Positions 11,415-33,871 of a DNA stretch of 64,000 nucleotides are shown here, one piece after another. The DNA is taken from NCBI GenBank assembly GCA_029204225.1, contig CM055102.1:32110607-32174606 (forward strand). The letters are read 5' to 3'. The stretch's first letter is position 1, and the number at the start of each line of letters is the position of its first letter. The position numbers and the translations under genes are program-made. Below the pieces are notes generated by a model that was given only the letters and a program-made list of their open reading frames with translations, was not told where the DNA came from and did not search any database. The stretch is from Diphasiastrum complanatum (Eukaryota > Streptophyta > Lycopodiopsida > Lycopodiales > Lycopodiaceae).

Positions 11415-11935
11415 TAGCTTGACAATCTCTCTAAAACAAGATTTGAATCATCAAAAAAGATGAAGTATGGCAAAAGTTATGGTTCTCTGAATTTCACACG
11501 TGTGAAATATTCCAAAAATGTCAAATTGACTCAAATACAATCTATCTGTATGAAACAATTTGCCTAGAACCTATAAGTTTTGTCTAAATCACATATAGAT
11601 GAGATTGTGTAGCTTCTGGATGATTTTTGTGATCATTCAAGCAATAAATGACATGTACACAAGATTTGCCACAGGTCTAGGCGCCCTACCTACGACTCTT
11701 CAAAATCTTATAACTTTTGATTGGCTTATACAACTGTCATGATTCAAATTGCATCAGATTCTGCACGTTTCTACTTTCTAGTAGGCTAATTTGCTTGAAA
11801 TTTGGATCTGAGGTGAGAGAGAACCACCAATCTGAAAATGGACGGATTTCACACATGCCAGCATCTAAAATTCCGTACAGTACCTGATCTGGCCCATTCA
11901 ATGTGGTTTGTAGCTCAAAATCACAAGAGATCCCA
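11415..11935 (-). mobile_element. Probable Copia leader; 5' LTR absent
   Basis: Non-coding DNA upstream (on minus) of gag resembles retroelement leaders, with phrases such as ATAACTTTTGATTGG near 11710. No primer-binding site and no copy of the 6780-7314 LTR is found, so the 5' end is lost. The sequence passes into the H3-like locus at about 11935. The exact junction is inferred. Confidence 0.4.
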
Positions 11936-12135
11936 GAGTTACTGCATTGCTCCATAGGGATGCACTAGCCACCCTAGATGAGAGAGAGAGACGGGAGAGC
12001 AGAAGCAGGAGTAGGAGTCGCAGCCCTATAGCGTCTCAGGAAGATCCAGCCACTCAGCATGAAGCTGAGGAGGACATGGCCCATAAAGTAGCAGCACAGG
12101 AGGACCAGACTGAGCAGCAGCAGCAAGAAGACCAG
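11914..12135 (+). pseudogene. Ser/Arg-rich open frame upstream of, and in frame with, the H3-like gene
   Basis: This frame has no ATG. It encodes an R-S-R-S-R-S-R-S-R-S-P tract, acidic Gln-rich sequence, then three consecutive TAG codons (12136-12144) inside a run of CAG codons, then seventeen more sense codons to the ATG at 12181. Changing the TAGs back to CAG would make 11914-13125 one open frame. It is either a former N-terminal part of the H3-like protein or its 5' untranslated exon. Confidence 0.45.
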
Positions 12136-12180
12136 TAGTAGTAGCAGCAGCAGCCAACACGAGAAAAAAGTCCTTCCCCG

Positions 12181-13125
12181 ATGGCAACTGAACGGGAGAA
12201 AACTATGAAGTTCCTAGATGAGGAGCTTGCGGCATCGGGTGAGTTGCCGGTTCTAAATGATTCTTTCTTCGACCCATTTCCATCAGCAATGGGCATGGAC
12301 ACATCAAAGTTAGGCATATCGGGGGACACCACACCCACCGTGTCACCTCCAAGTCACGGCCCGATGATGGGTCCAATGATGTCATTGCTGGTGGGTGGTT
12401 CTGACGAGAGCACCCTGATGTCGACCACAACAAGGATGAAGCAGAAGGCGACCTATAGATGGTCAGAGAGAGGAGCACACGAGCGAAAAAGAAAGAATCC
12501 TCGCAAGGCTGGGTCTACATCAAAGCGATGGAACCCTGCAGCTCAGGAGCCATCACCACTGCCCACACCGCCAACATCGCCTCCACCGCCTCCACCTCCT
12601 CCACCTCCACCGCCTCCGCCCCCACCGCCCCCACCGCCTCCACCGCCACCTCCACCACCTCCACCACCACCACCTCCACCACCATCACCACCACCACCTC
12701 CACCGCCTCCAAGTTCTGCTGCAGCTGGCCCAAGTAGGACCGTAGAGCGTCGCAGGGATAGGCCGGCCCCTCGTGCAGCACCATGGGCTGGAAAGGAGCT
12801 CCGTAGGATGCAGCCACCACCTCCTCGACCGCGTAGGAAGCGCAGGATCGCAAAGTGGTTCCAGGATATACGGAACTATCAGAAGTTCGTAAAATTTTTG
12901 ATCCCTAGGGCCCCTTTCGTGAGGCTTGTAAAAGAAATAGTCGATGAATTTTCCTTGGGGAACAGAGTTGCGGTAGATGCGGTGTCCGCAATACAAGAGT
13001 CTGCGGAAATGTACCTAACACAGCTCTTTGAGGACTCATTTTTGTGTGCAGTGCACGGGAAGAGAGTCACAATACTCCCAAAGGATCTCCACCTAGCTAG
13101 AAGGCTAAGGAGAGAGCGGAATTAA
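12181..13125 (+). CDS. Divergent histone H3-like protein with proline-rich N-terminus (module A)
   Basis: 314 codons, uninterrupted. Residues 227-314 align without gaps to canonical H3 from helix alphaN to the C-terminus, about half identical by eye: [43 protein letters not shown], then K-D-L-H-L-A-R-R-L. The H3-H3' four-helix-bundle residues equivalent to C110, H113, R116, D123, L126 and R129 are all kept. Loop 1 has canonical H3 length, unlike most CENH3. Ahead of the fold lie an acidic Met-rich start, a basic patch with R-M-K-Q-K-A that may echo the H3 tail, about 47 mostly proline residues (131-178), and an Arg-rich linker. No ordinary H3 has such an N-terminus. It faces the acidic partner gene at 13708-15065. 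It could be a functional variant, a transposon-borne H3, or a recently free-running pseudogene. Confidence 0.75.
12571..12714 (+). repeat. CCN (proline codon) microsatellite inside the H3-like gene
   Basis: A run of CCT/CCA/CCG triplets, interrupted mainly by two serine codons, encodes about 47 residues. Trinucleotide expansion is the likely origin. The opposite-strand and other-frame open readings here (Val/Glu-rich, Thr/Ser-rich) are by-products of the repeat. Confidence 0.85.
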
Positions 13126-13388
13126 AAATATCATGTACATGATTTTATTTATAATATATTGAAGATTTGGTGTCAAGTATCTTGCAGAATTTCAAGTTGT
13201 GTGAATGCAAATTGTTGTGATTGAGTTTGATATCTGATTTCAGTACTGTTTATGTGAATGCAGTCATTTGAAAATTTTAGTATCATCTATGTGAATGTAG
13301 TGATTTAAAATTTTTCAGTACTATGGAAATGGTAGTTTCTTTAACCATGTTGTAGATAAGATAGGTTTCCATGTCGTGGCATGGAAAT

Positions 13389-13453
13389 CACGCCAGGGCG
13401 CGACCAGGGCCCGTTTGACCAGGTCAAATGGGCCCTGGTCGCGCCCTGGCGTG
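13389..13453. repeat. Near-perfect 32-bp-arm palindrome
   Basis: Arms 13389-13420 and 13422-13453 match at 31 of 32 positions around a single-base centre. They are GC-rich (CACGCCAGGGCGCGACCAGG at the left end) in an AT-rich setting, 264 bp after the H3-like stop codon. A transcript would fold into a very stable hairpin. It may be a MITE, a foldback transcript end, or a recent inverted duplication. Confidence 0.85.
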
Positions 13454-13707
13454 AAAATCACGTCACGTAAAAAAAGGAGGAGAAATCTTTATCGAAAAAA
13501 AAAATTAAATTCTAAATTCAATAAATTAGCACATCATATAATGACAACAGAGAATTAGGAGAGTCCACAAGAAAAAAAGGACAAAATCTTTATTCACATT
13601 TGATCCATTTCCTTCAGAGAGGACTTCAGCTTCTCTGATCGCTTCTCTGATGACAGTACTGGTTTTAACATTTCTAATGCTAATTTAGGAGCATCTCCCT
13701 CATCCTC

Positions 13708-15065
13708 TTAAGGGCCAATTAAACCCGAGAGAATGAGCCGGGTCTCGAATCCAGGGCAAAAATCATTCAAAACGGCTTTTTGGAGGACACAGTAAGCCTT
13801 TGGCGCTGACGGTGACATGTCCAGCTCACCAATGTGCTTGGAGAGTGCTTTGCATTTAAGAAGCTCTGTCTGTCCATATGGGCTGTACTTGTTGCTGAAG
13901 CAGAAAATAAAGTTGTTGGGCAAGTTCCCAATGTAGTGGGCCATAGACCTGTCCAGAGTTCCTGCTTCAACTTTCTCCCGAGAGCCACCCCTTCGCATTG
14001 CAAATGCATCAAGCTCCACTGCATCCTGCATTTGGTTCAAATTATTGCAAAATGAGTATAATGAAGACAAACAAACATAACAAACACATGCAAGTTGAAT
14101 TGTTGGGTCAGAATTGCCTCGGTGCCTTCATCACTGTCTTCGGTTTGCGCAAGGTTAATTCCTTTGCCTTTGTACTTCACATCAGTAGTTTTCCCTTTGA
14201 GTACCTCGAATGGCCTCGTTTGAACTGGTAGTGGTTGAAGCGTTTTCAATTGGCAAAGCACTCTTGCCAGTGCTTGCTCGGTGGTGTCCGTGTCATGCCC
14301 GATCAGCTTCTCATACGTGTCGTCAGGCTGGGTGTGGTCGAAAGTGGAACTGCCATTCTGCAAATTTACCAATGCTGCCAGCATCTCATCTTCTCGCAAG
14401 CTGAGAATATGTTGCAAGTCATGCATGAACACATAATCCTATCCATCAACGATGATTGGAGCAAGGCCTTGGATTCGAAGCACGACATGATCGGACTCAT
14501 CTGTATCTTCTGGCTCCGCTGATGTGGATGCACCTGTTGCCTCTTGCACAGCCAAGATTGCTTCGTGCTCCGGAGATAAATCTTCCTCTTCACCCGGGTC
14601 GTTCATCTCGTTCACCTGCTCACTAGGATTGTGTTTGTTGCTGGCCACAGTCGCTGAAAACTCATTAAGCAAAAAAATAACAGTAATCTCACTGGATAGA
14701 AACCTCTTTCCTACACTTTCAAGATCAAAAGTTTTCAGCTGATCCTTCGTCAGTTCCAAGTAATGATCGTTACCCAAGTGACTAATAAATCTGTTGAGAC
14801 GAGCAATAAAGGGTCTATCTCCTTTCCATATATAACTAAGCAAGTTATATGGAATTCACATGATAGTTGAGCCAGGAATTTGTATGGCATAAGGCTTCAA
14901 AGTTTCATCTATATACTCACTCACGTACGTGAATGCATCCAGATTAGCCCGTAGAGTGGCAAGCGTGTCTATTCTACCGGTAAACATACAATAAATATGA
15001 TCTAACTGATCTAAAAACTCTGTGGGGGCTAGCAGACTGGCCAACTCTATTTTAGGGGACGACAT
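13708..15065 (-). pseudogene. Acidic unknown protein, partner of H3-like gene (module A)
   Basis: Two exons on the minus strand. Exon 1 runs from the ATG at 15065 to 14088 (326 codons), a 62-bp GT-AG intron is at 14087-14026, and exon 2 runs from 14025 to the TAA at 13708; both splice sites are phase 0. Exon 1 is one continuous frame broken by a TGA (14856-14858; CGA would restore Arg) and a TAG (14439-14441). It has acidic stretches (P-G-E-E-E-D, E-P-E-D-T-D-E-S-D) and a motif DLQHILSLREDEMLAAL that recurs in the module B gene at 31318-32677. The family is unknown to me. No membrane or signal segments are seen. The acidic character next to a histone-like gene suggests a histone-binding role, but that is inference only. 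Confidence 0.6.
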
Positions 15066-15190
15066 TGTTATGCAACTAAGAACACTAATTGACCAGCAAA
15101 CTAGTAGTCTAATTGAACAAGACAAGCTAAATTACGAGGAAACAAATTTCAACAAAGCAAGAAGTGACAACAAAATGAAAACCCCCACTC

Positions 15191-15198
15191 TTATATAG
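15191..15198 (-). promoter_or_regulatory. TATA box of the module A partner gene
   Basis: The minus strand reads CTATATAA about 125 bp upstream of the ATG at 15065, a normal plant core-promoter distance. It supports the chosen start. Confidence 0.5.
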
Positions 15199-15330
15199 AG
15201 GGACGTGTATCCAAAAATAGATATTATTATAAAACCAAATAAAATAATTTCTATTTATAACAACAATCCAATTCGACAGTAATATTTATCACAAAGGAAT
15301 ATTCGAATTACAATTCAGCATAAATTGTTT

Positions 15331-17927
15331 CTATTCCATCTCATCAGTTTCCGTAGTTTCTCTAGCGCTGTTTTCCAAAACATTGGATGTTGGTGTCCTT
15401 GACATCCATCTCTTTCCAACTCGGACTCTAGACATCCTCCATTCATGCCTTGTTCTAGCATTAGAGGATTGCCATGCTGTCTTTCTGACTGAATTTGAAT
15501 TGGAGATCATTGAACACAACTCTTCAATTCTTGTGTTTTGAAAGTGTCCTCGACCCAAAACTCCTCTGTAAAACCATTGGAATATCTCAACCAATGCATA
15601 ACTAAGACCCTTTCCTCCAATCATGCCGTGAATTTTTGAAATACGCAGCCTTTGCCATGTAATGACTCTTTTTCATGCCTTGCGTATTCCAAATAGCTAA
15701 TGATCCATAGGTTTTCATAAACCAAGGTCCATGAGCATAGAAGATGTGCTGTTCATAGAAAATTTGTGTTAGTTTAAATCTTTACAAATACATAAATATG
15801 AAAGTAAAAAATATGAGACACACATACCATATAGTGAGTTATGTGTGTTTCTCCCCATGCATCGATCATCAATTCAGTAAATGTTTTGACTTCTCTTGCG
15901 TATCTATCCAAATCTTCATCTCTCACAATCTTTTTGTTGATAGTTTGTGACAAGGCATCAAATGCTTGCCAAACCTTAGCACGTGTACTTGCCATGCGAG
16001 GATCTGAGCCAATATTTGTTGTGCATTGACATATTTTCCTCCAGTACTCCCATTCAACACTGCTTTCACGTGCAGTATGATTTGACAATAGGTGTCTCGC
16101 TTTCGCACCACCCACTGAAACGTTTGCTGGAACATCTTGCGTTTTTCCACTCATCTCAACGTCTTTGGTAAGACTCACGTGGCCCCCGTGCAATCCCATA
16201 TCGGATAAAATTATCTCTAGATTTCTAATGCTAACATCTGCTCTTGATTTGGGCTGCATGTTCCATGCGTAACAACAATGCAAAAATAATAAGTCCAGTA
16301 TTCGTAATTCACCATGCATTGTGCAAAAATGGACTCTTTCGAGAGGAATGTTCAACACAGGACTCCAAGCTTTGTCTAGATTGTGCCTATTTGGTGGAAG
16401 ACGTTGGTTGCAATTCAAAATACTTTTGTTCCGCCCAGATTCAAACATACAATATATACAAAAATTCTTTGCATTTGCACCGAGACCACAACCGTACATG
16501 CATTTCAAAGTCTTCAAATCAGCAGCTAGCTGCCATTCTACAGCAAAGCTTTCTCCTTCAACATTGAGAAATTTGCCTTTATTTTGTGCATGTATTACCT
16601 TAGATATACTAATTTTTTCAAATAGCCACTCCAGTACGTCGTGAGACTCCTTAGGAACTTCAAATGCAGCTATCCACCATATGTGATTTTCGGATTGCAC
16701 GCTAAATTCTTTACAATAACTTCCGCCAAACTGTTGCAATTCATGATTCATCAAGGTGATTGTGACACGTTCAAGTTTACGCCCTTTTACAATTTCTGCT
16801 TCGTCCAACTTAATAACAAAGATAACTTTACCTCCGCAATCTGTAAAACAGAAATTTCATTACTAAAACATATTAGTTGAAGAAAAGCATACAATTGAAA
16901 ACTGAAATTCACAATAAATGTTCTTACCATTTGTTCTAACTTTGTAATGTCGGATCATCATCGCTTGGACCTTTTCCAGATCTAAGAATATATTATTGCC
17001 TTGATGATAACGAAAACATGTCGGAGGTCCTTTCTTCTTATTGGTTACTGTAAAAGAATCCTCAATATGTTGAAACTCTCCTAAGTCAGAGCGTTTCATA
17101 TACTTCTTCAAAGCTCTATACCCCTTGCGACTCACACCTCCTTGGTCACATGCGTACACCATCTCTTTAACATTTGGATTTGGCTTGAACTTGTCCACTA
17201 GATTTTTTGCGATTCTCAAGCGAATTGAATCACTTGTTTCATCTTCCACAATCTTAATCAAATCTTTACCCTTCAAAAAATGTTTCATATATTTTCCGGC
17301 AATAAAATATTTTCCAACCGTCTTTTTCAAGAACTCTTTTGTGTCCCTCATACGTCTTTTACTGGCACCACCACCTGGTGCCAAAGCTTCTAGTTTGTGT
17401 CTCTTAGTGTTTTCATTTTCTGCTTGCTGATCCATCGAGACTCTATGCTTTCGTTGTAAGCCATATATTGTCCTCTGAAATATACTAATTGAAGATTGCA
17501 ATTCTTCAATTTTTGCGACAGAACTGGCAAGCTCTATTTTCAAACCATTTATCTCCTGCTCCAATTTTATATTTATTCCATGCAATGACTTTAAATTGTC
17601 ATTCATACTCAATATATGAATGTTTGCCGTATTTGCCAATGTCTCAGCTTGAATTCTTCGAGAATCCATTGCTTGACAATAGCCAAGCAGTCCATTCCGA
17701 CCATCCCCAACGAACCTTAACAAAGTATGTACATCAGAAAATTTAGGAGGAGCATCTACCAGTGGATTATGAGGGTATAAATCACCTCTTACCCATAGGT
17801 CAATATGTTTTTTTTCTTCTAATCTCCAACAATGCATGTCATACGGATTTAAATTAACACCCCATGTAGCTTTGGTAGTCGCATAATCCTTCTCTAACTT
17901 CACATGTAAGTGATACTTGGTTGTCAT
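15331..17927 (-). pseudogene. Transposase-like gene of unassigned family, three exons
   Basis: Exon 1 (ATG at 17927 to 16928) has an Arg/Lys-rich coiled-coil middle and a K-G-Y-R-A-L-K-K-Y segment. An 87-bp intron with GTAAGA donor and TTTTACAG acceptor leads to exon 2 (16840-15828), which joins to give N-G-D-C-G-G-K-V-I-F. Exon 2 continues with L-E-R-V-T-I-T-L-M-N, A-A-D-L-K-T-L-K-C-M-Y-G-C-G-L and C-I-Y-C. A 79-bp intron precedes exon 3 (15748-15331), with NTQGMKKSHYMAKAAYF and GGKGLSYALVEIFQWFYRG. One frameshift near 15615 splits exon 3. The D-G, then D-x-K with C-x-x-C, then Q-G-M-x-K order resembles large uncharacterised proteins of animals, fungi and algae that I believe are transposon-derived; I cannot name the family. 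The roughly 810-residue product is otherwise nearly intact. Confidence 0.5.
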
Positions 17928-18228
17928 CTTGAAGATGTCGAATTTCCCAAAAGAATCTATGTAGAACAGTAGAAACACACCTTAATCAACCTTGTGTCAA
18001 AGTTCAATGTGAACTAACCATGATATAAGCTTTATTAGGCATATACTAGTTACTTATTAGTTGCCTATTATAGTCTATGCAAATAACCTACAATAGTCTA
18101 TGAAAATGAGACCTACATTTAGGCCTTAACTCTTGTTCACCTTGTATGGTAACCCAAGGTAAAGGTGCCACATAGAATTGATTAGCACTAAATTAATTAT
18201 GATTAGAAAACTTGTTTAGGCAAGGAAG

Positions 18229-18540
18229 AGGCCCTTTTTGAGTCCAAAAAGGGCCCTAATGTCCAACGTCTGCGTCCGACGTATGATCGAAAATTTCATA
18301 ATCCGTCGCAATCCGACACGTTGAGGTCCGGCGTCCCAGTAAAAAATCTGAAATTCACACTCCGGCGATCCAGAAATATGGGCGGCAACCAATTTTTCAA
18401 AGGCACGTCGGAGTCTGCCATGTCGGATTCCGACTTGCAGACATGGATATGACCTGTCACACATTTTTTTAAAACAAAAATACGTGTAATCCGACGTGGA
18501 CATCGGAATCCGACGTGCGTCGGATTCCGACGTCTACATC
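18229..18540. repeat. Left CACTA subterminal repeat array
   Basis: Repeated variants of GTCGGATTCCGAC and its halves (CCGACGT, ACGTCGG), including back-to-back palindromic units at 18488-18533. A foldback AGGGCCTT-like palindrome (GGCCCTTTTTG, CAAAAAGGGCC) lies at 18231-18258. Such arrays bind the accessory transposon protein in En/Spm. Confidence 0.7.
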
Positions 18541-19208
18541 AGCATGCCAAAAAGCCTATCCACGAAATCTGTCCGGGCCTGAATAAAGATGTCACTCCAT
18601 TTGTATGTTGCTTGAAGGTTTAGAATAAGAATTGACGCAGCTAGTTTTGAAATGGATGCTCTAGGATATAGAGGAGTGTCTGTCTCTTTGCGCAATAGAA
18701 TCTCGTCTTCATCTATCTCAAATTGTTCGCGATCTCCGTTTTCATTAGAAGATGCATGCATATCATCATTCTCATTTGTTTCAAAGTAAGATTCAAACAT
18801 GTGCATTGCTTCATCGTGTTGCACCTCATTATCATAATCATTTGATTATTCTCTTTTCCAATTGTGTTTGCCTCTTCAATTTGTTTCATTCTTTGTTTTC
18901 TCATGTCTATCAGAACTTGACGTTGATTGTAACTAAACACGGATGGATCAACTTTGTGAAATGGCATTCGATGTATTGGCTACACACATTAAACAAATTT
19001 CATAAGTGACATATATAGATTGACGAAGATTATAATAAAAAAAAATCATATAAAATTAACAAACCTCAACGTCTTCCAAATTCAATGGTTGACCTTCTTC
19101 TTTTTGTCCAAACTTCCACAAATGATTTTCAACAATGCGTCTTTCACGCATCTTTTGTCCGTCACACTTGAGGCATGTGCACCATATTTTATTTTGAAAA
19201 TAGTTCCT
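18534..19208 (-). pseudogene. CACTA transposase (TNPD-like), N-terminal fragment
   Basis: The exon at about 19208-19064 encodes NYFQNKIWCTCLKC, then E-R-R-I-V-E-N-H-L-W-K-F-G, the C-x2-C...H pattern of the plant transposase-associated domain. It ends at a GAG/GTTTGT donor. The next exon (about 18980-18534) carries an acidic stretch, then P-L-Y-P-R-A-S-I-S-K-L and N-L-Q-A-T-Y-K-W-S-D, matching the LYPG...KLS...L...NGWSD signature of CACTA transposases. A frameshift sits near 18845 in an ATG/ATT repeat. Translation stops at TAG/TGA by 18534, where the left subterminal array begins, so the DDE domain is gone. Confidence 0.7.
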
Positions 19209-19662
19209 CTACGAGAAACAAAAATCAAGTACATGTCACTTTAGCACATTTTAACTTATAATAACAAAGTTTTTATGAACAAGAACACATGTATGTTTAT
19301 TATTTACCCTGTTAGCTTGAAAACTGTCTTCATCGCTAGACTGATCTAAATGTAATTCATCTCGTTGTGATAAACTGCATATATGCACAAGTACAAAACA
19401 CAAATAACATAAAATTATTGTATCATTTTAATGTTTTAATTTTTAGATATACCTATTCTTATACGTTGTCGCTTACATGATTCTTATGCCAATCTTGGTG
19501 CAGGTTCGAGCTCTACATGCATATCTCTCTCCTTTTGTTAACACAAGTATGAAAGTCCCACTCCAATATGAATCAAAGTTTTGTAATCGATTTTCTTTTC
19601 TACTTCATTTCAATATATTAGGGTCTACTGTAATGTCTTGTATGTTTATGAATGTAGTAATC

Positions 19663-20645
19663 ATGTCGAGGTCAGGCAGTGGTGAAAGCTCGGGAGACTT
19701 TGTAAAAAATTTATATGAATCATTAACTCCCGAGCAAAGAACACAACTGCAAAATATGCTTAGCCAAAATGAGGGTGGTCCCTCACAAGAGGCCGCCGCT
19801 CCCGGCCCCACCGAAGAGTCATCCAGAAATTCTTATTATGACGTGGATCCTCAAGGCAATATAATTGCCAATAAAAAAGGAAGGGTGATTTTGGACTGAC
19901 TCTATTCTTTATGCCAACGTCATTTTGGCGACAGATTATTTAGTAAATGGTCCGAACAACCTGCCGTCGATAAACGACAAGTTATTGGTACCCTTCATGA
20001 TGAAGATGAATTTGAGGAGAAGGAAATTCATAAGCATATGAGCTTATGGATTAGGCATCGTCGTGATATGGCACGACGAGCTTATAGGAACGGGCAATCC
20101 AAGCCTTCCTGGTGTTCAAGAAGTGATTGGAACTATGTAAAAGCGGATGAACGAACACCAGATAAATACAAGATTCAGAAAGATGCTGCGGTTGCTAGGA
20201 TGCATGGGATAGGCAATCCTAGGTTGGGCTCGAGCGGAAAGACGGGATTGCAAGCAAGCATGGTAAGTGAACTTACACTACTCTTATAGTTTATCTTTGA
20301 TTTTATATGCTTTTATTATTTAATATGCATTATGACTAGCTACTTCAACGTAGCCCTAAATTAATTTCAACTTCAATTAAATGCATGGATAGTTGGCGGA
20401 CTATGCACGTCTGCCAACTAAGGAGGAGTACAAATTTGCTTTCAGGGAATCGTACGATGCATTAGTCGACAAACTAAAGAGCGAGGGTCATCCTCCAAAT
20501 GTAAGTACTAGTTTTTGTATTTATACTAATGTGGTTTGTATTTCGACGTCAATTTAATTTAATTTAATATGATCAAGCATTAAATATTAATGTAGTTTGT
20601 TTGCTTGTGTTCATGGAGACTGGACGTCACGACGACGACGAGTAG
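19663..20645 (+). pseudogene. CACTA second gene (plant Transposase_24-like), three exons
   Basis: Exon 1 is 19663-20262, exon 2 is 20393-20500 and exon 3 is 20619-20645, all phase 0 with GTAAGT donors. Exon 1 opens M-S-R-S-G-S-G and includes L-Y-E-S-L-T-P-E-Q-R. A single TGA at 19897-19899 (CGA to TGA) interrupts it, after which the frame continues through FSKW, W-I-R-H-R-R-D-M-A-R-R-A-Y-R-N-G, W-C-S-R-S-D-W and K-T-G-L-Q-A-S-M. The spacing of W, R-R and N-G...S-x-S-D-W resembles the plant Ptta/En/Spm accessory family. The gene starts head-to-head with the transposase fragment, leaving about 450 bp for a shared promoter. Confidence 0.55.
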
Positions 20646-21224
20646 ATTAGGTTTATTAGTTTTAGTTGATGTTAGATCTAGAAAGACTCGTGCGACATTA
20701 AAACACCAATTTTGTAGTACATTAATTCATATTATGAAAAATATTATTATTGCAAATGATCATGCTATATTGCCATTGCTTTTACATGTGCAATGTTTTT
20801 TTTTTCAAAAATTGCAATGTCAAATTTAGGGATGTGGATTGACGTGATAATCAACTAAGAAATGTCGGATTTCAAAACAACAATCAATATTATATCTAAA
20901 AATCTAAATGAAATTTATGATGTGCACAAAGCATATTGAACATAAAGTAATGCAATAAAATATTGCCATGAAGTAATGCATGAAGTTTTGTCATTCATAA
21001 TGAACATGAAGTAATGCAATAAAATATAAAATGAAAAATAGTTTAAGAATGAAAAGTACCTAATGCTTAATTTGTTGTTTGATCCAGATGTTGAATGCAG
21101 CTCAAAAATATTGTTTTAAAAACAATTCACGAACATCGCTTCTCCAAGAACTCAACTCCAAGAACAACCCGTGAAAAATGCGTGTGCTGTTTTTTACGCA
21201 TTTTTTATTTTTATTTTACCTAAT

Positions 21225-21510
21225 TTGGGACGTCGGAATCCGACGTCCTAACACGTCGGATAGACGTTGGACATATTTTTTGATCATTATGTTAACAGAC
21301 GTCGGATTTTGACAGCTTTATGGGACGTCGGATTCCGACGTCCAAGGATACGTCGGATGGGCGTCGGACATTCGTCGGTGAAATTTTGGAATCATTCTGT
21401 GTTTTCAAACGTCGGAATCCGACTGAATTTTAGCACGTTGCATTGCGACAGCCACGTCAGAGAGTTTGCAACGTCTTTAAACGTCGCAATCCGACATCCA
21501 CGTAGAACGT
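21225..21510. repeat. Right CACTA subterminal repeat array
   Basis: At least eight copies or halves of ACGTCGGATTCCGACGT, for example at 21229-21250, 21298-21308, 21324-21340 and 21407-21422. They resemble the left array. The array ends abruptly against Copia sequence. 20646-21224 between gene and array is AT-rich without a gene. Confidence 0.7.
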
Positions 21511-23100: not shown

Positions 23101-23949
23101 CGAATCAAAAACTCTTTTTTGCTGAAAATTTTAACCTCTAAGCAGGTGGACATGTTTGCAACACTATAAACATGGATCCTTTGGAGGGTTCTAGCACCGA
23201 GATACTGAGAATTGAGGAAGTGGCAGCCAAGGTCAATTCTATGGAGTGATTTTTCAGCAAATCCTTGAATGTTGAAGACATCAAGATCCTCACAAGAATC
23301 GGAAGCGGTATGATTGTTTAACTGTTTCATTTTGTGAAAGACTTGCATGGAAGTCTCAAAACCTTTTTTTGTAAAGAAGCAGACTCATAGCCTCCAAGGA
23401 GCAATGCAATTAGCTCTATTGTTGAAACATGACAATAAGGTTCGGGCAGTTTTTTGGCTCTTGGGGTAACCATAGGCTCAAAAGGATTAAAGTCAATCTG
23501 GGTAAAGGCAAGTTTCAAGTGACCTAAAATTAGGAGTAGGGACTTCTGAGGACAAAGGATTGTATGGGCGGTCTGATGTCCAAAGAATTCAGCGTCCTTC
23601 AATGTGACAAGTAGCTGTAGCTTCTAGGGACAACGATTGTATGGGCGATTCGATGCTCAAAAGGGGCCAGCGATCTTTGTTGCTAATGTCACAAGACCAA
23701 GAGTATTCCAAATTGCTAATGCCGCAAGACCAAGAGTGTTCCAAATGAGAAAGTTTTGCTTTGGCTACTTGGTAGGATGCATGTGGAAGGAGACGTTCAG
23801 CGAACCGAGGTAGCGGCCCGGGGGGAGTGTGAGAGCAGGGAGACGCCCGGGTGACTGCATGGACAAACCAAGGAGATAGGCAGCAAGCCAGGCCAGCGAC
23901 TCGAGGGGATATTGCGAGCAGGGAGATGTTGCTGCACGACGACCATGCA

Positions 23950-24046
23950 GGGGGAGTGGGGAGGGGAGGGGGGGTGATGTAAACCCCCCCATTACATTTC
24001 AAAAAAATAATTTAATGGTACAAGGGGGGAACCCCCTTGTACCATT
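23950..24046. repeat. G-quadruplex-like G tract, C tract and perfect hairpin
   Basis: 23950-23974 reads as G runs of 5, 4, 4 and 7 separated by 1-3 bases. A run of seven Cs follows at 23984-23990. Then comes a perfect 15-bp inverted repeat (AATGGTACAAGGGGG / CCCCCTTGTACCATT) at 24014-24046 with a 3-nt loop. It lies inside the Gypsy element between gag and RT debris; no gene is present in 23250-24380. Confidence 0.7.
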
Positions 24047-25036
24047 TTTTAAATCTGTACTTCAATATGAAATGCAAAAAAATTTGCAACCTTGTTCCTC
24101 TCCAAACAAGACAAAAAAAACTACGGATGAAGTGTTAAAAAAGTTTCAACCCTTCACAAGTTTAAAATCTGAATTTGGGCCTTGCTTTTGAGTGTGACTT
24201 TGTCATCAATAAAGGGCTACGAGATTATAGTTATAGTGTGGTTAGTGGGTAAGTTAGATTTTGGGGATTTCATCTAGGTCATTGGATGTGCCATGTCATA
24301 TGGACCATTCCATCTCAATTGTCACTCTTTTATTGGTACACATGTCATCATTAACACTAATCATAATTAGTGAAGAGGCCCTTTTTGGCCTAATGGATGT
24401 TGGAACGATGTACTCTGATTATTTATGGATGACATTTTGGTTTACAGTTGTGGTGACGCGTTGCATGTAACTCTCCTTAGAACTGTTTTGTCAACTCTGA
24501 GAGATAACATCTTGTTTGCTAATGATAATAAAAGATAGCATATTTGGGTGCTATTGTGTTAGTTGAAGGTATAAAACTGAATCCAAGGAAAGTTGTTCTC
24601 CTTCCATGGCCTATACCTACAGACTTGACGGTATTGAGAGACTCTCTTGGATTGTTTGGGTTTTATTGCAAGGTGTGAAGGGTTGTTCACACATGGCTGC
24701 ACCTTTGACCGATATGCTATAGAATAATAAGTGGACAAAAGTTCAGCAGTGCAGTTTCGACGCTTTGAAACAAGCTGTGGCTGACATTGTCACATTAAAG
24801 ATAGTAGACCCTCAGAAACCATGTCATAGTAACGGATGCGAGTAACATCATCGTTGGGACAATTCTGATGCAAGAGGGTAGGCTAGTGACCTTTGTGATT
24901 GAGAAGCTCAACATGCTCAGAAGAGTTGTATGCCATTGTCTATGCTATGAAAGTATGGAGGCATTATTTGTGTGGTGCGGGTTTGTACACGCCGACCATG
25001 ACATTTTTATGTATTTTTTCAATTATCCAGGTAGTT

Positions 25037-25425
25037 TACCGGTCAAACATGACACATGTCACATGCTCACTGGGACACTTGGTCTAGTGTATGAGTGACA
25101 CATGTCAGCCTACTCACTTGCCTATGTGTCAGAGTACTGTCAAGTGGCAAGTGTCAACTGTGCATAGAATTGGCCATGTGTCGACGTTAGAAAAGGTCAG
25201 GGTTAAGGGGTACTTGAGGATTGTGCATAAGTGAGCCTAGAGAGAGGCATTCCTCATCATAATCTATGCAGCAAAGGTTGGGAGGACACAAGGCAGTCAG
25301 CTCCACCATGTTTCCTATGCTCTGATGTTTGTACATGTAGGAAAATCGACAGGGTTCGACATTGTTGATTGTTGCACATGGGATAAGCTAGGTTTTAAGT
25401 GAAGTTTCATATGTGGATTCTAACA
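25037..25425 (+). repeat. 3' LTR of the nested Gypsy element, 5'-truncated
   Basis: It matches the 5' LTR from its second enhancer-like unit to the CA end, but lacks the first 300 bp or so. It also contains about 80 bp (around 25190-25265) absent from the 5' LTR. The two LTRs have therefore each lost different parts since insertion. Confidence 0.75.
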
Positions 25426-26945
25426 GCTCCATTATTGATAATTGTAGTAATTCCATGAATATCTGAATGTACAACTTGAAAAGGCTTTGTAGATCTAGTA
25501 TCAGGTAGTCTATGTGACTTTGACAAAGCACAAGATCACAAACATGATTAATACTCTTTAAGGAACTTGGAAGACTAATCACAACTTGCTTTCTAGCCAT
25601 TACCTCCAATGACTTCAAGTTGAGGTGTCCCATCCTTTTATGCCAAACTTCTTGATAAAGTATTTGATGTCTTTCAACACATCCAACTTGGTTAGCAATA
25701 ACACAAGCATCTAGTTTGAACAATTTCCCTTGTCTTTTACCATTTGCAATCAAAATGTCCTTCCTTTTATCATACAAGCATCTCCATCAAACTCAACTTT
25801 GAGGCCTTTACTTAGCAATTGACTCACACTAAGCAAATTCTTGGTAATAGATGGAATGAACAAAACATCCTCCAAATGAACATTTCTATTTGTACAGAGA
25901 GAAATAGAAATTATGCCAATCCCTTTGATTGCACACTCACCATCATTGGTGTAGATCACCCTCTTATCATCTCCATATGCCAACAAAGAGGTGAAACACT
26001 CTTTCTGCAAGGTCAAGTGTGAACTTGCTCCACTATCAATCCACCATGGATCTGGATCTCATTAGCAAGCATACATAAAGACATCACAAAAGCATCATCA
26101 TTTGCATCTTGAACATCCAAACCATCCTCATCAAGAGTAGATCACCTTGCTTGTCTCCTTGATCGCTCTTCTTGTAGCACTCACTTGCAAAGTGTCCTTT
26201 GATGCCACAATAGAAGTACTTGAGCTTTGATCTATCTTTCTTTTTGCCATTTGAAGAAGCCTCCCCTTGATCTTGCTCTTTAGACCACTTACTTTTGCTT
26301 TTGCCCTTGATGAACATAGCCTCCTCTAAAACTTGAGATATTGATGAAGATCCACCTCTTGCTTAAAACCTATATTCTTCATTGATCAAGATCTCTTGAA
26401 GATCAATCGAACTTGGCAATGTCTTTTGAATAGTAAGACTTTGAACAATGTTATCCAACAATCCATCAAGAATAACTTGAACAAGCTCTCCTTTCTTAAT
26501 GCTCTCATCAATGCAAGCTAACTCATCTTTGAATGCTTTCACTGTCAAAATAAAAGTATTTGGAATTTCTTCACTCTTTTGCAAACAAGAAAAGATTGGC
26601 CTTCTTAGAGTCAATACTCTAGAAATAGACTTGGATTCACAAAGCTTCTTAAATGAATTCCAAGTGTCCTTTGATGAAGTACTCTTACGAACTTCTTTGA
26701 GAAACTCATTGGTAACATTCATCTTTATCATGTGTAGAGCCTTTTTGGCCCTCTTTTCATACCTCATTTCATCTTGTTGTGTTGATGGTATCTCCTCCAA
26801 ACCTACAACAATATCCAAAATGTCATTCATCTCAAGAAGTGATTCCATCATCACTTTCACAATGAATAGTTATTTGAGGTAAGCTTATCATTGGATTACA
26901 AATTGACTCCACTTGATGTAGACATGTAGCAATGACTTGATCCTC
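25426..26945 (-). mobile_element. Copia gag-protease-integrase N-terminus (5' part of the split element)
   Basis: Gag is at 26860-26363 (UBN2-type, A-L-H-M-I-K-M-N-V-T-N-E-F). The zinc knuckle C-G-I-K-G-H-F-A-S-E-C has its first cysteines as Y-F-Y-C (26317-26084). The protease C-terminal region is at 26016-25750 with LEDVLFIPSITKNLLSV. Pre-integrase is at 25777-25388 with VWHKRMGHLNLKSLEV. It continues at 21512-22106 beyond the Gypsy insertion. Its leader was split by the gag-only element at 26951; leader sequence resumes at 31027 and ends near a degenerate primer site (GCACTTATACCA, about 31123). Confidence 0.85.
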
Positions 26946-26950
26946 TCTTT

Positions 26951-27488
26951 TATCATGTGCCAAATCCCAAACTAATAGCACTTACAATGAAGTAAAGCTA
27001 ATAGCAAGAAAAGTACAAAACATTCATGATAGCATATCCATAGAAAGCTAGAAACATGGAGAACACCATAGAATCACATTAGCAATGGAAAGAAGAGTAC
27101 AAGATGTGTACATGAGCATTGATTCATGTAGATAAGGCACATGAGAAATAGCAAAGGGAATCCCCATAGCTCATATTTACAAGGAGGAAGCTAGAAGCTC
27201 TCACTTGCAAATGAGCCAAAAGATTCCAATAATGATGTCTCTTGCCTACTTATAGACAAGTCCCCTAACTTAACTAAACATAACTATCTTGAAGGATAGT
27301 TAGCCCTTGTTAAGTATTATTTAGCCTACATTGGGCCCTTAGTGGCCTATTATCCCTAGTAATTACTTTGAAGGGCCTAAAGTGGGAACCGCCTTGTTCT
27401 TAAGGCTAATAGCTCCTTTTGGTCTACAAAGCTTACAATGGATATTTTAAGGCATTGATAAACACTGATGTACTAGAAGTACATGACA
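26951..27488 (-). repeat. 3' LTR of the gag-only element
   Basis: It ends ACATGACA against the polypurine tract. It closely matches 30483-31021, with only scattered substitutions visible by eye, which points to a fairly recent insertion relative to its surroundings. Confidence 0.9.
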
Positions 27489-28214
27489 CTCCCCTTACTT
27501 AAACATTTTTGTCTCCCAAAAAAAAAAAACACTTGTCTGATCAGCTTGATCGCCTAGGTTAAGTGGTCATGATTGAGGATGTGTCGTCCAAAAATGTGTT
27601 GCCTCATTATAGATCCAAAGCTGTCGAATTGAATCCATTTTGCTAGCTTCAGACTGTAATCCTTGTTCCCATGGAAAAAAAATGATAGTCAAAGATGAGG
27701 TTGATAAAGCACTATATTGTTTGTTGGCAACCAATCTGTATGGAATGGACAGAGTGTATCACTGCAATATCCTCTTTTTTCTGCTTCCTCGACATCATAC
27801 CAACTTGAATGCTTATCTAATTCCCTTGGATTCTTGGTCTTGTCTTACATCTAGCTCTTCTGTTGTAATTGCCAATCCATGTTGTTTGACCAATTTGATG
27901 TATCCAGATCTGAGACTTGACTTTCGTGGTCGCTTTGCTCATCTAACTCATTGTTATCACTTTTCTCATCAGACTCATTGTCATTGCTTCGCTCCTCTGC
28001 TTCGTCATTGTCACTTTGCTCATCTTCATTTTCAGTTTTTTCACTTTCCTATATCTGTTTTGTTTGTCGATCCACTGATGCTTTTGTGTATACACTCACT
28101 TTTTGGATCCACATCTTCATTTCCTAAAACCATTTGGATTGCTCTTCTTTCCTTTAAGCTTCCAACTTAAGCCTTTTTTCTTGTTGCTCATACTTTAAAG
28201 CATATTCCATAGTT

Positions 28215-29261
28215 TCAAAACCCAGGCTGGAGAGAAGTAGATTGTAGACAGTTTTCCACAATGCTCTGATATTGAAGTTGTAAGCCATGTATATAGCATT
28301 GTGCAAGATATACTGCTCCATAATTGAATACTGGGGCCATTTGTTGGAATTCTCGATTGTTTTCAGCAACTATAGTTGTCTGGTTCAAAGAACACCATTG
28401 GATGAAGTCGGATCGATTGAAGATCTGTCTACAAAGTCTTTTGAAAGTTAACCAGTTCTCAGGAAGAAAGTCGTGAATGATGTTCCACCATGACTGAACA
28501 AATCCTTGAAAACCCGACGAACCAAAGAAAACCATACTACTGTCACCAATACATCCACTGTAGTAGAAGTTATAATCCAAATCTTCTAGCCAATTGTCTA
28601 CATCAATGGAGTGAATGCTTCCATCAAAAGTAGGACTAACGTATTCAGACAGTCGTTGGTTGTAATAATAAGGTTCTCGTTGAGCAGTGACTTTCCACCA
28701 TTCATTGATATGGTTTGTAGATAAATGCTCCAGAGCAAGTGCACAATCCATCATATTGTATATTTCCATAAAACTAGCAGCATGAATGGATTTGGAAGAA
28801 TGTGGTTGAAGCACATTTTTTATAGGAGTTTGAAGAAAATTTAAATAGTAGCCCAAGTATTTTTTATACTCAAATTTTGTCTTCTGAACCAATGCCAAGA
28901 ATTGCTGATTAAATTGTTGTACAGAAATAGTTTGTTTGAGGGATTCAAATGATTTCTCATAAAATCTGCTAATACTATCGATGCAAGCAATTTTGAATTG
29001 ACTCCAAAACTTCATGTTCGAATGTGCTTGAGTATCCCACCATGCTCGAATTTGTCCTTGAAAGCACAATGAAGTGAAATAAATTTTATCCTCTTCAGAA
29101 TAATGGCGATGATAGAAATAACCTTCCAATTTAGTCAACCAATCATCAATGCTGATTGAACTTGGTTGTCCATCAAATGCAAGGCTGTAACGTACGATTT
29201 CAGATTGTATTTCATTAGTAGATGGAAGATAAATGTTTTGACTATAACGATAATCCATCAT
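28215..29261 (-). CDS. Gag protein with two tandem gag domains
   Basis: 348 codons, starting ATG-ATG at 29261. Two related halves are visible. Half one (about residues 29-160) has F-D-G-Q-P...S-I-D-D-W-L-T-K-L-E-G-Y-F and FQGQIRAWWDTQ, then W-S-Q-F-K. Half two (about 210-300) has F-D-G-S-I-H-S-I-D-V-D-N-W-L-E-D-L and FQGFVQSWWNII, then W-L-T-F-K-R-L. This is the W-x-x-F/WW pattern of the Ty3-type retrotransposon gag domain, duplicated in tandem. No zinc knuckle is present. A shifted frame (28369-28154, then an acidic E-D-E-Q-S-D-N-D-E tract near 28027-27920) suggests that the original C-terminus ran on past a frameshift. Confidence 0.7.
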   Translation of the reverse strand: MMDYRYSQNIYLPSTNEIQSEIVRYSLAFDGQPSSISIDDWLTKLEGYFYHRHYSEEDKIYFTSLCFQGQIRAWWDTQAHSNMKFWSQFKIACIDSISRFYEKSFESLKQTISVQQFNQQFLALVQKTKFEYKKYLGYYLNFLQTPIKNVLQPHSSKSIHAASFMEIYNMMDCALALEHLSTNHINEWWKVTAQREPYYYNQRLSEYVSPTFDGSIHSIDVDNWLEDLDYNFYYSGCIGDSSMVFFGSSGFQGFVQSWWNIIHDFLPENWLTFKRLCRQIFNRSDFIQWCSLNQTTIVAENNREFQQMAPVFNYGAVYLAQCYIHGLQLQYQSIVENCLQSTSLQPGF

Positions 29262-30482
29262 TGATGACTAGTGAAGACTTGTGGACTATGAATTCACCGT
29301 CTGAAATTTATTCAGAATGGTATTTATAGACTGGTAAAATTGCTCTTCTCCATGCACTTAAAACTCAGAGTTCTATGATGAGTGAAACTGAGAATAGCAA
29401 AAACTTGTAGCTCATATGAAATTGAGCACTTTCGCTCTTTACAACATTGAATTCCAAGGTCAAATAGAAACATAAAGTGGATATGAAAAATCTGAGTTTT
29501 GTACACCTGATATTGAATGCAAGCGCAAATAGACTATTAGATTAAGCGCACAGAAGCAAACGCGCTTGAAATCAATATTGAAGAAGAAAAGAATTTTTTA
29601 TTTTTGGGGTATCGGTTTCAAGTGCAAATAGGATAGCCGAACTTTTTGAATAGTCCACCCGCACTCAAAAGCGATATTGCAAAAAAAAAAAAATTTAATT
29701 TTTCTATTTTTTTTGAAAAAAAAATGACGTAGAAAGACTTACGGACCTTTCATACTGAAGAAACTGAAATTTTTTTGAAGTGCTTCTCTCTCACCAAGAA
29801 ATACAAAGGAAAATTTCTAGAATTCTAGCAATTTTGACCTAGCTTCACTAATTTGATCATAACTCTCGCAATATTGATCCAAATCACAAAAACTCAGTAC
29901 CTCTAAATAGCTAAGAACAAGATCTATCAGGCTATGAATTAGGTCAGTAATTGAAGGTGATTTGTTAGGTCAAATTTAGAACAGAACAAGTCTGAAAATT
30001 TTGAAGATAGAAAACTAGTGAAACTAGAGCTAGAAATCAAGATTTGTCATAACTTTCTGAATACTAATCCAAATGACCTGCCATATAGATGAGATCAAAT
30101 CTAAATTTTTTTTTTAAAATGTTATGTAGAGAAACTTGAAATAAAGACTCAGATCAAATCTGAAAAATTCAAATCAAGTGAAAGCAAAATCCTAGTTACC
30201 TATTTTGACAGCTTTTGGAAAAAGTGCAATAACTTTTGCATATCTTATCCAAATGCCTTGCAAATTGATGCAAATGGAAGCTAAGACAAAGCTCTACAAA
30301 TCTATTGAATCAAATTAGAAATAAAAAATAAAATTGAATGTCAAAAATTGGTCTGAGAAGACCTGAAAATTTCAAAGTTAAAAATCAAAAAAGAAAGTTA
30401 CAAGAACAATAAACTCATCAAATCTAATGGAATTCTCATAGAATCATCATGAATCATGGATCTATGCACTGATACCAAGAAA

Positions 30483-31021
30483 TGTCATATGGCAAATCCC
30501 AAACTAATAGCACTTATAATGAAGTAAAGCTAATAGCGAAAAAAGTACAAGACATTCATGATAGCATATCCATAGAAAGCTAGAAACATGGAGAACACCA
30601 TAGAATCACATTAGCAATGGAAAGAATAGTACAAGATATGTACATGAGCATTGATTCATGTAGATAAGTCACATGAGACCTAGCAAAGGAAATTCCGACA
30701 GCTCATATTCACAAGGAGAAAGCTAGAAGCTCTCACTTGCAAATGAGCCAAAATATTTCAAAAATGATGTCCCTTGCCTACTTATAGACAAGTCCCCTAA
30801 CTTAACTAAACATAACTATCTTGAAGGATAGTTAGCCCTTGTTAAGTATTATTTAGCCTACATTGGGCCCTTAGTGGTCTATTATCCTTATTAATTACTT
30901 TGAAGGGCCTAAAGTGGGAACCGTCTTGTTCTTAAGGCTAATAGCTCCTTTTGGGTCTACAAAGCTTACAATGGATATTTTAAGACATTGATTAACACTG
31001 ATGTACTAGAAGTACATGAAA
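30483..31021 (-). repeat. 5' LTR of the gag-only element
   Basis: It starts (on plus) TGTCATATGGCAAATCCC and ends before TCTTT at 31022. The primer site lies just inside. The leader between it and gag (29262-30458, about 1.2 kb) is non-coding and contains diverged repeats of CATAACTTT...ATCCAAAT. Confidence 0.9.
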
Positions 31022-31317
31022 TCTTTAAACCTGTTTCAATGAACAAAGCACTCCTTTGAACAACAAAAAATGTTTTAAAAGGAAATCACAAAGATATGAA
31101 ACTTTTCAATTCTCTTCTAGCACTTATACCAAGCAAATCAACACCTAGAATAGTGAGATCTTGATCAACCTATGATCTATCCTCAATCTCATGACTCTTG
31201 CCACTTCCTAAGATTGAAAGACACAAGCCAAAATTAGATTGATGGCATCAATAAAGATCAAACGCGTGTGATAAAAAATTCTCAAATTTCACATACATTA
31301 AATGGAAAAGAGTACGA

Positions 31318-32677
31318 TCATTTTTTTTCATTGTCTCTAAGGACAATTTTTGCTGTGTGGTCATGAAGGAACTTTTTCCTATCATACGGATCCAAAAATC
31401 GAGTGGATTGCCTTTTGCTCAGATCTATATATCCTAATAGAATTGCCAGAGCAGATGATCTCATAGGAACATTTTCTAGCACGTAATTGAACACTTTAAG
31501 AGCAACATCTCTTGTGACAAAAATGATTCTATATGTATTTTTTGGATATTTATGCCCTTGGGCAAAATAAGATAGGGCTTTGATGGCCATAATTAAAGTT
31601 TCCGTATTCACAAAAAACCTTTCATGAAGAATATAATCAAGTGTTAGTCAAACTAGCAGATCAATCATCAGTTACACGTTAAATAGTAAATGATTTTTGT
31701 GAGAAGGTGTACTTACCAAATCCTCATCGTCAACTTGGATCACACCAGCAGCTTCTAAATTGTGACCAACAGTAATGGTCGATTGCTGGTCAGTTGGAAT
31801 AGTATATATGGGAGGTGGCGTAAAAAGCCAAAAACTCCTCCTCACTCAGCATATTAGCCTCATATGCCCTGCTCTCAGAGAACATACTTTGAAGGGCATC
31901 TATGTGACTTGCTCATTCTACCTGGTCCTCATAGTCGATGCCATCTAAGAGGTCGTCATCATCAAAGTCAATAAAATCATTAAATTTAGAAATCATCCTT
32001 GACATAAGAGATAATATCTCATCTTCTTTGAGATCCATTACGTCTCCGATGTCGCTAATGGACAAGAATGCAATATCGTCCATATGGTACACAGGGAGGT
32101 CCATCAGGGTTCTGCTCTGGTCAATCTCGCTCACGATAGATAAGGGAGAGATAGACATAGAATGAGCCTTGGCAGGATCATATTGATGTGCTTGCTTGGC
32201 CTCCTCTACATCTCCTAAAACCTCAGCCACACGAGTAGTAGGGCAAACCAATCATGGACGACCCAGAAGATTCTGCCTTGTCAGGGATAAGAGCAGATAA
32301 GAAAAACACAAAGGCCATACCCTCCTGAACGAAGCGACATACTCGATTGTGTTCCTCACAAGGTATGACACGTTTAAACAGATGATAAGTTTGGTTAACT
32401 TACGATCATGCCTTTGCTTGGCACTAGGCTGAGCATGAGCCAAATCTGTGAAATGCACAAATCTCAGGCCGTCCATCAGGAGGGTACCTTGTTGCAAGCA
32501 CTCATAGAAATCCTTGTACAGTTTGGAAAAAACTTCCCTGTGCTCAATAACAAATCTTATGTCAAACTGAAAATCGAAATAGGACAAAAAATGGGCATGT
32601 CTATTGCTAACCCCAACATCAAAAAGAAAAGAACTAAGAGCTCTATCATAGATCAAACTAGTAGAAGAGGAGGCCAT
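31318..32677 (-). pseudogene. Acidic unknown protein, partner of H3-like gene (module B)
   Basis: The ATG is at 32677. Exon 1 runs to 31717 (961 nt) and ends at a GTAAGT donor. It is one frame broken by TGA at 32252-32254 and 31913-31915 (both one C-to-T change from CGA) and by a frameshift in an A/T run near 31823. The last exon covers about 31613-31318, with a CTAAC branch-like site and an AG at its start; its phase is not resolved. It contains DIGDVMDLKEDEILSLM, matching the module A gene, and the acidic F-D-D-D-D-L-L-D. The exon 1 length, donor position and last-exon size all match the 13708-15065 gene. No known family is recognised. Confidence 0.6.
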
Positions 32678-32906
32678 ATCATTATGAGGTGCAAATTAGC
32701 AAGGGGACATAAATGGTGTAATCATGGGCGCATGATGGCGATATACACTGTACACAATTTTGGATATCAGAACTATTTGCCAGGGGAGCAGTGCAACTAT
32801 GGAACCATCTATTAGGCGTGTGGTAGCAGTATTGTATGTACTGATTCTGGAGTAGGTTGGTTTCCTGGACTCGTAATGCGAAACTGAATTCTGAAAATGA
32901 CACTCA

Positions 32907-32914
32907 TATATATA
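32907..32914 (-). promoter_or_regulatory. TATA box of the module B partner gene
   Basis: TATATATA lies 230 bp upstream of the ATG at 32677 on the minus strand. With the CACGTG cluster further upstream it makes a plausible promoter. Confidence 0.4.
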
Positions 32915-32969
32915 GTCTAATTTAGAGCATCTTAACCGCACACATGTTTCGATAATGTATGGTCAAATT

Positions 32970-33240
32970 TGCCACACGTGCGAAAACGACGGCCAAATCA
33001 TTTGCATGACACGTGTACACTTTGGATCCTGACACGTGCATGCCAACTCTACAATCGTACGAGCCAGTCGTCCCATGATGCGTGTGTGGCCCAGATCATG
33101 ACATGTGTCCTCGCACGTGCATGCCAGTCGTATGATCGTACAGACCGTTGATGTCTTAACCCATGGTAGGTCCGTGTGATGACACGTGCGACCACATGTG
33201 CAGGGGGTTGGAGGTGTCACATCACACGTGTGATAATGAT
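32970..33240. promoter_or_regulatory. Cluster of six CACGTG (G-box) motifs between the module B genes
   Basis: CACGTG occurs near 32976, 33010, 33034, 33114, 33183 and 33226, with related ACATGTG motifs between. Parts repeat (GCACGTGCATGCCA, ATCGTAC). In plants CACGTG is bound by bZIP and bHLH factors. The cluster lies in the 834-bp divergent intergenic space, so it could serve both genes. Function is inferred. Confidence 0.55.
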
Positions 33241-33511
33241 GGGACATTCTGCAGGTATGAAAGGACGTTTTGGGCTCATATTTTCATTTCAAATTTCTTC
33301 GTTCTCTAGCGCTCCTCAGATTTTTTTGTTCACTTGCGCCCCTCACTATGCGCATATTGCTACCAGCGAATAGAGAGTTAGATACTAGTACAGCTTCCCC
33401 CTTCGTGCGTCGTAGCGATACGCCATCGTCCATATCGCCATCACGTGCCTCCCCTATCTGATATGCATTGTTCCTTGTGATTGGCACGTCATAACGATAT
33501 CTTAGCTTGAA

Positions 33512-33871
33512 ATGGCCCATACCAAGCAAACAACACGTCTTACCACATTTGCCCCGCCCCTGGAAGCCCTCCATACTGCCTATGAGGACTTTCAAGTCAA
33601 TTTCTATGAGGACTCTATGCTTTGCACAGTGCACACCAAGAGAGTTACCCTCATGCCTCAGGACATGCATCTTGTCATGAGGCTGAGGAGAACATACGAT
33701 CAGGTCTTTAAGAGTGGCTTCACCTCTAGGCCACCACCTACAGAGAGAGGGCTTGTTCCTCAACGAAGAAGGGGAAAGCGGACCAAGCCCACCAGGCCTG
33801 CCAGGCAAAGGGTAGTACTCAGCGAATCACCATCCCAGATATATCAAATCCAGTTGTGGAGGCTGGTTTGA
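33512..33871 (+). CDS. Truncated-rearranged histone H3-like protein (module B)
   Basis: 119 codons, uninterrupted. Residues 1-9, MAHTKQTTR, match the H3 tail start MARTKQTAR. After eight residues the sequence enters the second half of the histone fold: L-E-A-L-H-T-A-Y-E (17-25) corresponds to helix 2, E-D-S-M-L-C-T-V-H-T-K-R-V-T-L-M-P (33-49) to loop 2, and Q-D-M-H-L...R-L-R-R (50-60) to helix 3. About 80 canonical residues (the rest of the tail, alphaN, helix 1, loop 1) are missing. A new basic C-terminal tail of 57 residues (R-R-R-G-K-R-T-K-P) follows. Such a protein could not form a normal H3-H4 dimer. It is divergent to the acidic gene at 31318-32677. It may be a decayed copy or a repurposed H3 fragment. 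Confidence 0.7.
   Translation: MAHTKQTTRLTTFAPPLEALHTAYEDFQVNFYEDSMLCTVHTKRVTLMPQDMHLVMRLRRTYDQVFKSGFTSRPPPTERGLVPQRRRGKRTKPTRPARQRVVLSESPSQIYQIQLWRLV

Follow-up and report, generated by a model that had tools for sequence, protein, structure and literature searches.

Two odd histone H3-like genes of the clubmoss Diphasiastrum complanatum lie in decayed copies of two high-copy mobile-element families

Introduction

A stretch of 64,000 nucleotides from Diphasiastrum complanatum (assembly GCA_029204225.1, contig CM055102.1, positions 32,110,607 to 32,174,606; hereafter the window) holds two odd genes similar to histone H3, each close to a minus-strand gene for an acidic protein, here called the partner. 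Why should an unusual histone and an acidic neighbour occur together twice? The original prediction, made from the letters of the window, left two answers, an undescribed pair of a histone variant and a chaperone-like protein, or the cargo of a mobile element. We report here that both pairs are decayed and come from two mobile-element families, A and B, which are present at high copy number and only distantly related. With a probability of about 0.8, the module forms the central part of a DNA transposon lineage that conserves four genes, one of them a putative transposase; a role in chromatin is proposed more tentatively.

Both loci belong to dispersed repeats

Each search of the window's own assembly scored only 40 first-look candidates, the window's own place counted. 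With the DNA of partner A, 40 of 555 candidates were scored, and each was at least 96% identical over nearly the full 1,401 bases; the places were spread over 18 contigs numbered between C1 and C23, and over small contigs. With the DNA of the first histone gene, H3-A, 40 of 343 candidates were scored, all at 95% or more. The 10-kb stretches around 20 of the 40 scored partner places made up the family A comparison set. Across these 20 loci the histone, the partner and a minus-strand gene at 15.6–18.0 kb of the window, which belongs to the same element as pair A, align as one unit, some copies being internally deleted (L009 and L010 lack the histone start for this reason). The copies are mostly 92–98% identical to window positions 11926–18261 in long pieces, the lowest value outside the proline tract being 89.5%. 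Three pairs are probably duplicates, since they are 99.7–99.8% alike, L012/L015 and L018/L019 over the whole stretch and L017/L023 over 6.6 kb. The right end of the unit is sharp at 18261, beyond which the flanks differ between copies, and other copies extend 2.27 kb to the left of 11926. The window copy (11926–18261) is therefore truncated on the left, where gene 1 and the left terminal repeat have been lost; two copies measured 8,804 and 8,894 bases. In addition, three hypothetical proteins of D. complanatum match the H3-A core at 89, 87 and 82% identity; their locus tags refer to chromosomes 05, 13 and 07. A gymnosperm origin was rejected on this ground in favour of a lycophyte. Between H3-A and partner A, at 13375–13467, lies a near-perfect palindrome of 46 nt, at which the alignments of other copies often break.

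The second pair lies in a fragment of family B (31222–34189), which retains the partner and the histone only and aligns to L042, L043, L045 and L046 at 84–96%. In a search with positions 31318–33900, 40 of 1890 candidates were scored and gave 132 matching pieces, of which the long ones were mostly 83–89% identical. Three segments of L046 are missing from the window copy: some 130 bp near 31633, some 187 bp at 33558, within the H3 gene, and some 388 bp at 33836. Homology in this family starts at L048:119–127 in 38 of the 40 scored places and ends at about L047:1339 in most of them; given these shared boundaries, the copy at C15:1490518–1498738 is about 8.2 kb long.

It is almost certain that the genes at 11926–18261 and 31222–34189 belong to a mobile element. 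The suggestion of a mobile cargo was right in substance, as both pairs lie inside high-copy elements and the histone and the partner are two of the four genes that these have in common. Both window copies are dead fragments, with no histone or partner that seems intact: in H3-A truncation is combined with upstream in-frame stops, H3-B, the second histone gene, is internally deleted, and both partners are interrupted.

Four genes are common to the two families

Both families carry gene 4, which is the transposase candidate, the acidic partner, the H3-like histone and gene 1, each homologous from A to B. Comparing the family A frames with the family B copy in L046/L047, we obtained expectation values (E) of 5e-32 for gene 4 (52% over 90 residues), 8e-18 for H3, 1.4e-8 for the partner exon, and 6e-13 and 7e-7 for gene 1. 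Once family A is reversed, both families show the arrangement gene 4–partner–H3–gene 1; the strands of gene 4 and gene 1 are kept, while the partner and H3 are each flipped. It had been argued that a simple block duplication does not explain the two pairs, and this is borne out, since they come from two diverged families in which the partner and the histone are each oppositely oriented relative to gene 4 and gene 1.

Gene 4 occupies 15605–17981 on the minus strand, in several exons (main open frames 16866–17981 and 15777–16856), within the same repeat unit as H3 and the partner. We infer that it may encode the transposase because of its position, its conservation and a cysteine-rich segment noticed by eye. 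Gene 1 had given, by eye only, the impression of a BAH-domain protein, in which Pfam found nothing, and this assignment was rejected.

The histone H3-like genes

The similarity to H3 that had been proposed for both genes is real. The Pfam Histone domain (PF00125, cut-off 26.4 bits) matches H3-A with E = 7e-27 and 94.5 bits, H3-B with E = 1e-10 and 42.4 bits, and the longer L046 copy with E = 6.3e-20 and 72.1 bits. H3-A (11929–13125, plus strand) is truncated at the 5′ side and has three in-frame stops at 12136–12144, a poly-proline tail and a complete H3 fold at 12847–13122. H3-B (33512–33871, plus strand) starts like an H3 but keeps only the final portion of the fold, the centre being lost with the internal deletion at 33558. 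That H3-B might be a processed pseudogene of a canonical H3 was ruled out, because longer copies show a complete, divergent H3.

The family A frame begins upstream of the window truncation (MSEEMARTKQTARDPRVT...), and other copies begin MSEEMARTKQTARDP or with near variants, upstream of 11926. Among the 18 loci that hold the start, the exact peptide MARTKQTAR was found in five (L011, L012, L015, L016, L024) and near variants in 12, L027 being deleted there. A long tail, RS-rich, glutamine-rich and then poly-proline, precedes the H3 fold. Of 14 copies, the window counted, eight have an open 92-codon core, and in L028 358 codons are open into the fold before a stop is reached. The four family B histones that were read begin with variants of MARTKQTAR, none exact, followed by the H3 fold with LIPRAPF or a variant of it and by a further C-terminal segment; at the position of H3 Phe84 three of them have tryptophan and the fourth a stop.

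Some of these features are shared with the centromeric histone CENH3: LIPxAPF before helix 1 and the lack of glutamine at position 68 in both families, and the tryptophan just mentioned in family B. CENH3 has a longer loop 1 than canonical H3. By contrast, loop 1 has the canonical length in A and B, and the N-terminus is of the H3 type. In the PDB both H3-A and H3-B match ordinary H3 types best, not CENP-A. In a histone tree, built with reference histones, bootstrap values of 21–44 at the relevant nodes do not settle the placement, whereas an earlier FastTree run had put A with the CENH3 type at 0.935.

The acidic partner genes

Partner A, on the minus strand, consists of exon 1 (14088–15065), an intron of 62 nt with GT...AG ends (14026–14087) and exon 2 (13708–14025), which is homologous to the family B exon. 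In the window, exon 1 contains two in-frame stops (TGA at 14856–14858 and TAG at 14439–14441). Among 21 copies, window and probable duplicates counted, 10 have an open exon 1 and 14 an open exon 2; nine have both open, and the window copy is not one of these. In these counts, as in the comparison with longer copies, exon 2 includes one extra codon from the intron end. Partner B (31318–32677, minus strand) is decayed, with stops, a frame change and the loss of about 130 bp of the conserved exon near 31633.

The minus-strand genes proposed originally are thus real but decayed. They are far more open than shuffled sequences, with 364 codons and 2 stops in partner A (0 of 500 shuffles as good) and 260 codons and 1 stop in partner B (2 of 500), but the exon models had overlooked the in-frame stops. 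A common exon structure had also been claimed; for partner A the two-exon model is supported by the copies open in both exons, while for partner B the exon size and the donor phase are unsupported because of the stops and the frame change.

Homology of the two partners was only suggestive on the window sequences. The motif region alone was beaten by 2 of 2000 shuffles, and, among window frames of at least 90 amino acids, each partner has its best non-self match in the other; yet the whole score was reached by 19–27 of 2000 block shuffles, blastp gave no row below E = 0.5, and the profile comparison by hhalign returned P = 0.12, a result equalled by 5 of 100 shuffles. The kinship became clear with the longer copies (blastp E = 3e-9, 44 of 187 residues identical; hhalign P = 2.4e-7), over a region that covers the motif first noticed and the second exon. 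The partner has no Pfam match above the cut-off, and a single-sequence AlphaFold model of partner A had a mean predicted local distance difference test score of 31.8, too poor to judge the fold. Searches with Rfam and PADLOC gave no lead.

Ends and insertion sites

In family A the left and right ends are inverted repeats of CATTAGGGCCCTTTTTGGACTCAAAAAGGGCCTCTTC, 37 bp long, with termini CATTAGGGCCC that begin CATTAG. The right repeat of the window copy, with its internal hairpin, lies at 18225–18261 and matches in inverted orientation the left ends of other copies; the right end was seen in 15 of the 20 loci and in the window, and the left end first in L029, L030 and L009. As a single DNA strand the repeat forms an 11-bp hairpin, a fold that no shuffle out of 200 equalled. 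The fetched stretches of 11 copies were searched for left ends, which were located in nine, the exceptions being L022 and L025. None of these nine copies with both ends is flanked by a target-site duplication. The CA found on either side of L011 is present at its empty site too, and L020 and L028 share one base. Moreover, empty sites were found for L011, L021, L024 and L027, in relatives 75–88% alike from the window or the same locus. All four were seamless, with no base duplicated or lost, and the target bases were a^c (twice), g^a and t^g. The relative that serves as the empty site of L021 lies in the window, at 28807–29067. It is held in a stretch (26953–31019) with two direct repeats of 535 bp, 95% alike, around a gag-like frame, a small element of the long terminal repeat type beside partner B. 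Terminal inverted repeats around pair A inside the window were looked for and none was found, the left end being missing from the window copy.

Family A directly abuts, at 18262–21500, a stretch that resembles a DNA transposon, with several CGTCGGAATCCGACG palindromic repeats on both sides and frames that look by eye like pieces of a CACTA transposase. This CGTCGG-repeat element was ruled out as part of family A, since the other copies stop at 18261.

As for family B, no inverted repeat was found between the two ends of the copy that was followed. Its right end begins CATTA, like family A, and folds poorly, being equalled by 63 of 200 shuffles; the 7-bp hairpin of the left end was equalled by 2 of 200. 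In one copy, L044, the left terminal segment (L044:1–504, window orientation) is inverted in place. The motif CACGTG occurs seven times within the 470 bp at 32975–33442, between the divergent partner B and H3-B, and nine times elsewhere in the window; this cluster may represent promoter G-boxes or transposon subterminal repeats.

Comparison with known elements

CACTA elements have CACTA termini and a 3-bp duplication, Helitrons lack terminal inverted repeats and insert between A and T, and Cryptons use a tyrosine recombinase. Family A has terminal repeats, as elements with terminal inverted repeats (TIRs) do, but with CATTAG termini and no 3-bp duplication. It inserts seamlessly like a Helitron, but has 37-bp repeats and targets other than A^T, and no Rep match was found. 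Cryptons insert seamlessly as well; Pfam gave no recombinase match, although the genes are too diverged for this to count as an exclusion. With regard to hAT elements, the 8-bp duplication is absent in nine of nine copies, and the gene 4 pieces have no Pfam match to the hAT dimerisation domain or DUF659, which is weak evidence. Judged on these sequence features, family A falls outside the hAT, CACTA and Helitron types.

An H3 gene borne by a transposon is known from fungal hAT elements (PMC3538342, PMC6710886), and the latter paper gives 8-bp target-site duplications for those of P. fijiensis and C. zeae-maydis. These elements of Dothideomycetes (the H3L element of Pyrenophora tritici-repentis, and those of Pseudocercospora fijiensis and relatives) are likewise TIR DNA transposons with a divergent H3-like gene. 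The clubmoss elements, by contrast, lack a hAT match and a duplication, have different termini and four genes, and bear the histone in two diverged families of a plant. Fungal DNA transposons encoding a TET/JBP dioxygenase (PMC12730594) also carry a protein that acts on host chromatin or DNA marks, but that cargo is an enzyme acting on DNA methylation, whereas the clubmoss cargo is a structural histone. In open-licence papers we found no histone-carrying transposon described for plants.

Selection and alternative explanations

Whether the genes serve the element was judged in part from substitution patterns. Between A and B, the proportion of synonymous differences is saturated (pS 0.75–0.82) against 0.37–0.45 for nonsynonymous ones (pN); the comparison covers gene 4 (89 codons) and the H3 core (85 and 72 codons). 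For the counts within family A, L015, L019, L023 and rows covering less than 85% of a segment were dropped. Changes common to at least three copies numbered 6 nonsynonymous (N) and 6 synonymous (S) in the H3 segments, where a ratio of about 2.5 is expected, 20 and 5 in the partner, and 13 and 2 in gene 4. This hints at constraint on the histone, with too few changes to settle it. We consider it likely that the histone is a selected part of the element and, with somewhat less confidence, probable that the acidic partner is too.

Several results weigh against a functional four-gene element. For changes confined to one or two copies of family A, N/S is 0.80–1.67 of expectation in all genes, which indicates that copies drift near-neutrally after insertion, and the shared changes give no sign of constraint on the partner or gene 4. 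No uninterrupted histone was seen: 0 of the 18 family A loci with a start are open to the end of the fold, and each of the four family B histones read has a stop, a frame break or a lost segment. Gene 4 pieces have no Pfam match above the cut-off and no recognised transposase domain (a missing match being weak evidence), and a PDB profile search gave no clear relative (one chain, E = 0.08). Protein-database searches with the partner, over 7253 and 1277 candidates, returned none at E ≤ 10, and a chaperone role, which the partner may have, is predicted from its acidity only.

The main rival is that an ancestral element took up a host H3, or CENH3, once, and that the gene rides along without function for the element. 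The fungal hAT elements (PMC3538342, PMC6710886) are a precedent; the near-neutral drift, the shared changes without constraint on partner or gene 4, and the lack of an intact histone among the copies read would fit as well. Against it, all four genes, the histone included, are present in two families, and nonsynonymous differences in gene 4 and the H3 core remain below the saturated synonymous ones. Since a useless passenger should have decayed, these two facts make passenger capture unlikely. It is very improbable that the elements are endogenous remnants of a DNA virus that had hairpin ends and encoded a histone. H3-like genes are known from viruses (PMC9145170), and family A has hairpin-forming termini and no target-site duplication, but none of the scanned frames gave a recognisable viral gene, scans of viral contigs by pattern, sensitive to close relatives only, were empty for partner A, histone A, partner B and gene 4, and dispersal to many sites with clean terminal repeats is typical of a transposon. 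Finally, an ordinary host pair of histone variant and chaperone, set among transposons by chance, would account for the H3-like domain and the acidic neighbour but is refuted at both loci by near-identical dispersed copies with sharp common ends.

If the four genes do form a transposon lineage, gene 4 would move the element. The H3-like protein, which its H3-type start and H3 fold suggest could enter nucleosomes, would pair with host H4 and be loaded onto the element or its targets, perhaps helped by the acidic partner; the element would thereby mark its own chromatin and escape silencing or choose insertion sites. We propose this loading of a private H3 variant only tentatively. Slightly more doubtful still is the wider proposal of a new superfamily of eukaryotic DNA transposons, with hairpin-bearing ends, insertion without target-site duplication and a private nucleosome system that would package or mark the element to evade silencing or direct integration and would consist of an H3 variant, the acidic protein that loads it and a third conserved protein. 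Known selfish elements counter silencing by enzymes and DNA-binding proteins; a lineage keeping its own H3 variant, with an H3-type N-terminal peptide, and a dedicated partner would have a direct way of writing chromatin state, and element-specific chromatin would become testable in a plant. It would also bear on the origin of histone variants, centromeric ones included, which may arise from, or be taken up by, mobile DNA.

Elsewhere in the window, an intact-looking germin-like (cupin) gene lies at 3732–4433.

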